NCBI GenBank assembly: GCA_012719415.1
Contig: JAAYAK010000025.1
Span: 1 to 43,312 of the forward strand
Reading direction: 5' to 3'
Length of the DNA stretch: 43,312 nt
Source: Syntrophorhabdus sp.
GTDB lineage: Bacteria; Desulfobacterota; Syntrophorhabdia; Syntrophorhabdales; Syntrophorhabdaceae
The notes beneath the pieces were generated by a model, which saw only the letters and a program-made list of their open reading frames with translations, made no database searches and was not told the DNA's origin. The position numbers and the translations under genes are program-made. Shown one piece after another: positions 6,269 through 39,128 of this stretch (positions within the stretch are counted from its first letter, which is position 1; each line of letters begins with the position of its first letter).

Positions 6269-6373
6269 GTTGTTTCCCGCAGCCTGAAAAACTGATGCCA
6301 GGTAGTCAGTATATACCACTTTTCAGTGAAATTCAAAGCCGAACCCCGCAACACCGCGCGGGGAGAGGGGTGG

Positions 6374-6476
6374 GAGCGGGGGCAAGCTCAAAGACCTTAT
6401 CTCACGCCCGTTCGTTGTATTCATCGTGCGGTAAGAGCGGGGGCAAACTCAAAGATATTATCTCTCGCCCGCTTCG
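6374..6476 (+). repeat. Pair of ~42-bp imperfect direct repeats
   Basis: The stretch GAGCGGGGGCAARCTCAAAG followed by a TTATCTC-CGCCCG-TTCG segment occurs at 6374-6414 and again at 6435-6476, 61 bases apart. The second copy runs into the left end of the large symmetric element that starts at 6458. The first therefore looks like a duplicated fragment of that element's border. Confidence 0.75.
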
Positions 6477-6891
6477 CTCAAGACCGCAGAGGACGCAGAG
6501 AGAGGAGAAAAGAAAGAAAAGATTGCCGCCGGATTTCGAAGCCTACCAAAATCCGGCGGCCTTCTCGTCCCGCCGTCCCGGCGGGAGAGAAACAATATGG
6601 GCTCTTTATCCTGAAGAAGTTATCCCCTCTCATCCCCCCCTGTAGTCATAGGTCCTATAAGTCCTATATGTCTCATAGGTCCTATACCCCATCCTCCAAC
6701 CCCCATACTACCTTACCCCCCAAGACTTCCATCCCCCCACCTGGAAAGGATTCTTTTCATGTCCCTCCCGTCGCAGACGGGATGCAAGGCCGGCTGGATC
6801 TTGGAAGGCTTCGAAATCCGGCCGGATCTTTTCTCTGCGTCCTCTGCGGGCTTGAGAGACGAGCGAAGTGAGGAACGGGCGAGAGGCAAGG
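6458..6891. repeat. Large mirror-symmetric intergenic element, copy A
   Basis: A 434-bp element filling most of the hisC-cmk gap. The outer arms are inverted copies: CTCTCGCCCG plus CTTCGCTC and CGCAGAGGACGCAGAGA on the left, with their reverse complement on the right. Inside each arm lie two hairpins. On the left, GCCGCCGGATTT pairs with AAATCCGGCGGC (6525-6560) and TCCCGCCG with CGGCGGGA (6568-6586). On the right, TCCCGTC pairs with GACGGGA (6766-6782), and a 10-bp stem lies at 6790-6825 followed by TCTTTTCTC. The centre holds a nine-base tandem tract (GTCCTATAN) at 6643-6687. A second copy lies at 25143-25579. No credible gene was found in it. Confidence 0.85.
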
Positions 6892-25142: not shown

Positions 25143-25579
25143 TTATCTCTCGCCCGCTTCGCTCAAGACCGCTTAAGGACGCAGAGAAAGACTGAAATGA
25201 GAGAAAAGACTGCCGCCGGATTTCGGAGCCTCCCAAAATCCGGCGGCCTTCTCATCCCGCCGTCCCGGCGGGAGAGAAAGAGAATATCCTTATTCTGAGC
25301 AAGCTGTCCCCCTCATCCCCCCTGTAGTCATAGGTCCTATAAGTCCTCTATGTCCCATAGGTCCTATAATCATCCTCCAACCCCCATAGTGCCTCAACCT
25401 GCAGATTCCCCTCCCCATCACTCCCACCTGAAGTCACAACTTTTCTTTTGCCTCCCGTCTCAGACGGGATGCAAAGCCGGCCGGATCTCGGGAGGCTCCG
25501 AGATCCGGCCGAATCTTTTCTCTGCGTCCTCTGCGGGCTCGAGAGAGGAGCGCAAGCGACGAACGGGCGAGAGGCAAGG
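25143..25579. repeat. Large mirror-symmetric intergenic element, copy B
   Basis: A 437-bp homologue of the element at 6458-6891, in the same orientation, between the DUF2520 gene and the aldehyde oxidoreductase operon. It has the same order: arm, a stem of GCCGCCGGATTT with AAATCCGGCGGC, a TCCCGCCG stem, a nine-base tandem tract (25325-25369), a TCCCGTC stem, then a perfect 11-bp stem GGCCGGATCTC/GAGATCCGGCC followed by TCTTTTCTC, and the inverted arm. The last hairpin could end transcription from the rplU run. No credible gene was seen in it. Confidence 0.85.
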
Positions 25580-38273: not shown

Positions 38274-38315
38274 AGTTTGTCTTTTTCCTGGAACCTGAAA
38301 CGTGGAACCTGGAAC
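38274..38315 (-). repeat. Heptanucleotide tandem tract (right arm of inverted pair)
   Basis: Read on the minus strand: GTTCCAG, GTTCCAC, GTTTCAG, GTTCCAG, GAAAAAG, ACAAACT, from 38315 to 38274. It is inverted with respect to 38125-38166 and encloses about 107 bases with no gene. The closing GAAAAAG-ACAAACT pair matches the ends of the other tracts. Confidence 0.75.
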
Positions 38316-38459
38316 CGCTTTCCGGTTTTGCCTCTTGCAATAAGTCGGCAATTCATGGACAATGGAGAGAAATCTGGGGCATGAGCAGGGTTCCCGAAGA
38401 TTCATTTGCCTGCCAGGGAACATCTCAGTCCCAAGACACCCTGGAAGGAGTGCCCGAAT

Positions 38460-39053
38460 ATGAGAAAGAGATACATCATCCTTGTCGTTCTTGCGTTTCT
38501 CGTGTGCCTTGCCCCGGCGGTTCGGTCTGCGGATGAAAAGGTACAGGACGCTTCCTTCTGGAGGACTGAAGGCGACAAGTATGTCCAGATGCGGGAATAC
38601 GACAAAGCGGTCGAATGCTATAAGAAGTCCCATGCTATGGACCCCCTGCATGCCCGGACCGTTTTTCGCATAGCGTTCTCCTATGATGCGCAGGGAAAAT
38701 TCGGTGAGTCCCCGCCTTATCTTGACAAGGCGCTGGAACTTGTCAAGTCGGGGAAGGACAGTTCAAAGCTTCCCATCGGCGACATTTACGCGGAGAAAGG
38801 CTACATATTGACATTGACGGGAAAGTACAGGGACGCCTTGCCTGTCTACGACCTTGCCATCGAGAGCGATCCGAAATGGTCCTATCCGGTATTCTGGAAA
38901 GCCTACGCGCACTTCAAACTGAATGATTACGGAAAGGCCCTTGAGCTGTGCAACAAGGTGCTTCAGATGGAACCGAACCACAAAGATGCCCTGAAGCTCA
39001 AAGGGATGATAGAGCAGCAGCAACCAGCACCGCCGTCATCACCGAAGAAATAG
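38460..39053 (+). CDS. Secreted small TPR protein
   Basis: About 197 residues. It has a signal peptide (MRKRYIILVVLAFLVCLAPAVRSA), then four TPR-like repeats containing EYDKAVECYKKSHAMDPLHA, YRDALPVYDLAIESDPKWSY and YGKALELCNKVLQMEPNHK. A proline-rich tail ends the protein. It is exported, probably periplasmic, and would bind another protein; no partner can be named. I chose ATG 38460 because GGAAGGAG lies upstream and the hydrophobic leader follows directly. Confidence 0.8.
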   Translation: MRKRYIILVVLAFLVCLAPAVRSADEKVQDASFWRTEGDKYVQMREYDKAVECYKKSHAMDPLHARTVFRIAFSYDAQGKFGESPPYLDKALELVKSGKDSSKLPIGDIYAEKGYILTLTGKYRDALPVYDLAIESDPKWSYPVFWKAYAHFKLNDYGKALELCNKVLQMEPNHKDALKLKGMIEQQQPAPPSSPKK

Positions 39054-39093
39054 GGGCTGGAGCCACGCTTCGGACTACGCCCGGGGAGAGACG

Positions 39094-39128
39094 GTTTAAA
39101 GTTTCAGGTTCCAGGTTAAGGACAAAGA
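39094..39128 (+). repeat. Heptanucleotide tandem tract 5
   Basis: Units GTTTAAA, GTTTCAG, GTTCCAG, GTTAAGG, ACAAAGA with exact seven-base period, just after the TPR gene. It is a short single tract of the dispersed heptad family. Confidence 0.75.

Follow-up and report, generated by a model that had tools for sequence, protein, structure and literature searches.

The 43,312-nucleotide stretch of Syntrophorhabdus sp. DNA analysed here (contig JAAYAK010000025.1 of assembly GCA_012719415.1; hereafter, the window) carries two copies of a hairpin-rich inverted repeat, copy A at 6458-6891, between an aminotransferase gene and a cytidylate kinase gene, and copy B at 25143-25579, between a DUF2520 protein gene and a molybdopterin-dependent oxidoreductase gene. 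Our reading of the sequence confirms both at the places given by a preceding sequence-only reading of this DNA. The element is about 430 bp long, its inverted arms match over at least 100 bases in both copies, and an ORF check found no transposase-sized open reading frame inside it. No Rfam family matched the element at the gathering score, the sole match of the window being a tRNA, and a literature search for the word of its outer stem, CGCAGAGGACGCAGAG, returned nothing relevant. A whole-genome search with copy B found about 20 full or partial copies in the same genome, several of them at contig ends, and many further copies are present in relatives of the same genus; 53 distinct two-armed elements from Syntrophorhabdus genomes, with all of their arms aligned, made up the set compared below.

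Each half of the element has, from the outside inward, a fixed block (CTCWCGCCCG), an end module, the word CTCRAG, an outer stem, a local hairpin, and a smaller inner hairpin (Table 1). The end module takes either a short form (CTTCGCTC) or one of several longer types, and the outer foldback stem, centred on CGCAGAGGACGCAGAG, pairs the left arm with the right arm. The stem of the left local hairpin is CCGCCGG and that of the right one is CGGCCGG, and the centre of the element is asymmetric and carries ATAGGTCCTAT repeats, which are also found solitary at about 10 places of the genome and which, in relatives, form arrays between genes (L212, L213). A second type of right arm (L013-L016, L063-L067, L074, L085) has a longer outer stem (e.g., GGTTTTGAGGAGAGCACACAGAG) and mostly GC-rich loops, and takes the place of the first type at orthologous sites. 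In another genus of the family, we also observed elements of about 250 bp whose ends are the same but whose inner hairpins are unrelated (L202, 1501-1802; L201, 1501-1800), one of which, in L202, directly abuts another left end.

Table 1. Features of the two copies of the element in the window.
Feature	Position	Strand	Remarks
Copy A, foldback element	6458-6891	+	
Copy A, left end module and outer stem	6462-6500	+	end module of the short form
Copy A, left hairpin	6525-6560	+	loop GAAGCCTACC at 6538-6547
Copy A, left inner hairpin	6568-6586	+	
Copy A, centre repeats	6642-6686	+	
Copy A, right inner hairpin	6766-6782	+	
Copy A, right hairpin	6790-6825	+	1 G-T wobble, 1 C-A mismatch
Copy A, right loop	6803-6812	+	GGAAGGCTTC; reverse complement GAAGCCTTCC
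Copy A, right outer stem and long end module	6833-6885	+	second long type
Copy B, foldback element	25143-25579	+	
Copy B, left end	25147-25167	+	conserved CTCTCGCCCG and short end module (CTTCGCTCAAG)
Copy B, left outer foldback stem (M segment)	25168-25186	+	rare CTTAAGG variant
Copy B, left hairpin	25212-25247	+	loop GGAGCCTCCC at 25225-25234
Copy B, left inner hairpin	25255-25273	+	TCCCGCCGTCCCGGCGGGA
Copy B, centre repeats	25324-25368	+	ATAGGTCCTAT
Copy B, right inner hairpin	25453-25469	+	TCCCGTCTCAGACGGGA
Copy B, right hairpin	25477-25511	+	perfect 14-bp stem (CGGCCGGATCTCGG/CCGAGATCCGGCCG)
Copy B, right loop	25490-25499	+	GGGAGGCTCC; as left-type reading GGAGCCTCCC
Copy B, right outer foldback stem (M segment)	25520-25537	+	
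Copy B, right end	25538-25573	+	long end module and CGGGCGAGAG

The site of copy A is occupied in three species (genomes G000, G002, and G005), and the element is absent there in the sister species represented by G001, G010, and G003; counterpart sites without the element were also found in relatives for L016 and L002. The copies are found a short way behind stop codons: under a rough reading-frame rule, 44 of 50 have the 3' end of a gene on one side or on both. By eye, no consistent direct repeat appeared at the junctions or against the empty sites, the exact ends of the element being uncertain, and a search of its own genome with exact patterns in the draft assembly showed that paired end motifs bound short elements only, with no autonomous partner among them. 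Because neither a target-site duplication nor an autonomous partner was identified, the MITE label is given by resemblance only. By that resemblance, namely a short element without a transposase gene, terminal inverted repeats, dispersed copies, and empty sites, copies A and B are a MITE-like, gene-free, non-autonomous, hairpin-rich mobile foldback element of Syntrophorhabdus, and this foldback family is of an ordinary kind that is uncatalogued in the sources searched.

Many copies have a companion repeat (GGTRRGAGCGGGGG...CTCAAAGAC; 6369-6471 in the window) directly beyond their left end. At the copy A site, this repeat is present in G010, where the site lacks the element; hence the repeat is separate from the element, and it may indicate where insertion is preferred. 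At 38276-39126, the window contains two CCTGGAACCTGAAAC-type words in inverted orientation, separated by 783 nt, and words like these also lie between genes in G001 and G010 (L207, L209).

Within each of the local hairpins, pairing is preserved by changes that occur on both sides of the stem. In the right hairpin, 98.1% of the cells are paired and both sides have changed in 9 of the 12 pairs, and in the left hairpin, the values are 97.9% and 7 of 13; none of 500 shuffles reached as high, and slid controls fell to 14–60%. In several stem pairs, a double transversion has turned G-C into C-G or T-A, and no mismatched intermediate was seen. The folding is very stable (z of -8.5 and -11.6), and the predicted single-stranded DNA fold gives separate local hairpins on each side in copy B and one long foldback in copy A. 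The maintenance of pairing that had been suggested from the two copies is, in this way, strongly supported inside each local hairpin by the compensatory changes, but not between the left and right arms. Most likely, the pairing is kept by template switching or quasipalindrome correction inside the hairpin, and selection on the fold may help to keep it. Template switching at inverted repeats is a documented process that makes arms alike and maintains hairpin pairing (PMC8604942, PMC8794818), and the known process of replication template switching at imperfect palindromes is the likely cause of the pairing repair in this family. We consider it unlikely that the pairing is selected for a function in the host, for instance as a two-sided 3'-end structure for mRNAs in the intergenic space, with hairpins that the transcripts need. 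The strong compensatory changes, the very stable folding, and the frequent gene 3' ends beside the copies speak for such a role, but a position after genes is also expected of tolerated insertions, the element is absent at some orthologous sites, and hairpins are deleted, with the rest of the element kept, in several copies (L010, L016, L109).

The agreement between arms is a different matter. The loop letters are those reported in the sequence-only reading (GAAGCCTACC on the left and GAAGCCTTCC on the right of copy A, and GGAGCCTCCC on both sides of copy B), from which it had concluded that the halves of one copy agree where the copies differ. Our comparison of the four arms contradicts this: among 22 informative sites, 21 group the arms by side, 1 by copy, and 0 are crossed. 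The sole site grouping the arms by copy is loop position 2, and at loop position 8 copy A's own arms differ (A vs. T). The right stem of copy B is perfect, as had been said, but it measures 14 bp instead of 11, and the G-U pair noted in the right stem of copy A is there as a G-T wobble, together with an additional C-A mismatch. The loop agreement in A and B alone is no more than chance would give; it is mainly one base, and no special process is needed for it. We also considered the pairing of loop bases 2 and 8 as compensation within one hairpin and found no rule, given that in the right-arm loops A-C (8) and G-G (8) are as common as A-T (10) and G-C (8).

Across the 53 copies, hairpin identity is 0.915 between left arms, 0.789 between right arms, 0.776 between the left and right arms of the same copy, and 0.759 between those of different copies. 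Left arms, therefore, cluster with left arms in the all-copy alignment that had been proposed as the check, which is the pattern named beforehand as speaking against homogenisation of the hairpins, and the distinction between left and right halves is an old one. The small within-copy excess gave P values of 0.001 for the hairpin and 0.003 for the loop under free permutation, and of 0.008–0.009 for both when shuffling was restricted to within genomes. With stratification by right-arm subtype, P rose to 0.24 for the 22-base hairpin core, and other windows and strata gave 0.002–0.07 (0.002–0.012 for the loop); loop base 2 by itself gave a Fisher P of 0.07. Given that the copies are related, permutation alone is insufficient, and we therefore adopted an ortholog swap test, in which right arms are exchanged among orthologous copies of different species, recognised by flanks that are mostly 80–93% identical. 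If the left-right split predates the species split, swapping among orthologs removes shared descent. In the first set, the swap test found no significant within-copy excess in the hairpin (P 0.21) or the loop (P 0.33), nor did it with added copies (hairpin core P 0.10, loop P 0.17), and there was no within-copy left-right excess in the end modules or inner hairpins. At the copy A site, both orthologs have arms that disagree at loop base 2. Across all of these controls, the loop P runs from 0.002 to 0.33, a range that leaves room for a weak loop effect.

The outer stem gave a positive result. Its ortholog swap P was 0.022 in the first set and 0.0037 in an extended one, consisting of the first set plus one group and three copies, typed by hand; with any one group dropped, P stayed between 0.002 and 0.011, and in a scramble control, 0.05 was reached in 4.5% of trials, as expected of a calibrated test. 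It is a small effect: in 32 copies, 428 matches were counted where 411 would be expected, and since some six zones were tried, the corrected P is near 0.02. At the copy B site, the ortholog in G001 has the rare TTAAG in both arms and that in G010 has CGGAG in both, while copy B itself has TTAAG on the left arm alone; L004 and its ortholog L083 likewise agree internally in the outer stem and differ from one another. The positive swap test means that some arm homogenisation is real, faint and in the outer stem only. This is the segment where both arms pair directly, and the small statistical trace there points to arm-to-arm copying within a copy as the probable mechanism.

That subfamilies simply carry matching left and right variants by chance and shared descent, without any within-copy process, would fit the loss of the hairpin-core association once right-arm subtype is controlled, as well as the weak result for loop base 2 alone. 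Nevertheless, the outer-stem excess survives the ortholog swap, the leave-one-out analysis, and the scramble control, and shared descent should not give such an excess if left-right divergence predates the species split; we regard this explanation as improbable. Lower still we place the opposite one, a strong homogenisation in which hairpin-templated repair or gene conversion regularly copies arm onto arm within a copy, loops included. It can call on the low permutation and stratified loop P values, on the identical left and right 22-base hairpin cores of four copies (L061, L067, L074, L104), on the rare end module that the two sides of L061 share as well, and on L219 (in G005), where both hairpins are of a different class than in its ortholog L009, a case that favours more arm exchange than our preferred explanation allows. 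Against it stand the hairpin identities, higher between left arms than within copies, the grouping of the A and B sites by side, the swap tests of hairpin and loop (P 0.10–0.33), and the end modules and inner hairpins. The homogenisation idea holds in part as a principle, and it largely fails for the loops, the site that it named.

Copies also exchange pieces. The end-module type differs between species in 12 of the 12 orthologous groups tested, and at the copy B site, the arrangement is short-left/long-right in the window and long-left/short-right in G010 and G001. L007 and L066 share an identical flank and left arm as far as the end of that arm, followed by a diverged centre, a right half of another type, and then a near-identical right flank. 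Orthologous copies resemble each other more than non-orthologous ones do in the inner hairpins (P 0.01–0.02), but not in the end, outer-stem, and hairpin zones. We weighed independent insertion at each of these sites and favour shared insertion instead, because of the more similar inner hairpins and because the junctions coincide at the copy B site. Inversion of the interior through the arms was ruled out, since the orientation of the centre is constant relative to the orthologous flanks in matched groups. The pattern is one of end modules turning over at the same site and of whole right halves being replaced, for which ectopic recombination is a plausible source. Very unlikely, in our view, is the further proposal of an element that travels and sustains itself as a single-stranded foldback, its paired segments templating each other's repair, with end modules swapped as cassettes between arms and copies and ends evolving faster than the interior at every site.

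Taken jointly, the data are probably best explained by a MITE-like foldback family with distinct halves, pairing repair inside each hairpin, exchange of pieces among copies, and a faint arm-to-arm copying in the outer stem. The family offers a natural set of orthologous imperfect palindromes across several species, in which a simple swap test separates copying between arms, correction within a hairpin, and exchange among copies. It also teaches that a homogenisation suggested by a two-copy comparison may find itself mostly unsupported by a family-wide test.

Bacterial MITEs such as Correia, ERIC/IRU, and RUP resemble this element in being short, gene-free, dispersed, and intergenic, with terminal inverted repeats and insertions present or absent between relatives; unlike them, it has neither a target-site duplication nor a parent transposon found, each of its sides carries several nested hairpins, and its end modules are exchangeable. 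REPINs and BIMEs, which are REP doublets mobilised by RAYT Y1 transposases (PMC3116915), are likewise found behind genes and likewise consist of imperfect palindromes in inverted pairs, and Y1 transposase genes are present in most genomes of this genus. However, the present element has about 430 bp against about 100, and about 20 copies against a very high copy number, and ten Y1 loci of the genus, one per genome, gave no arm match up to an E value of 1; on these grounds, we place it outside the REPIN/RAYT group. Quasipalindrome correction and template switching (PMC8604942, PMC8794818) differ in being a known mutation process and not an element, and the between-arm trace here is faint and in the outer stem only, but in both cases imperfect inverted repeats converge by multi-base changes and stems change in pairs.
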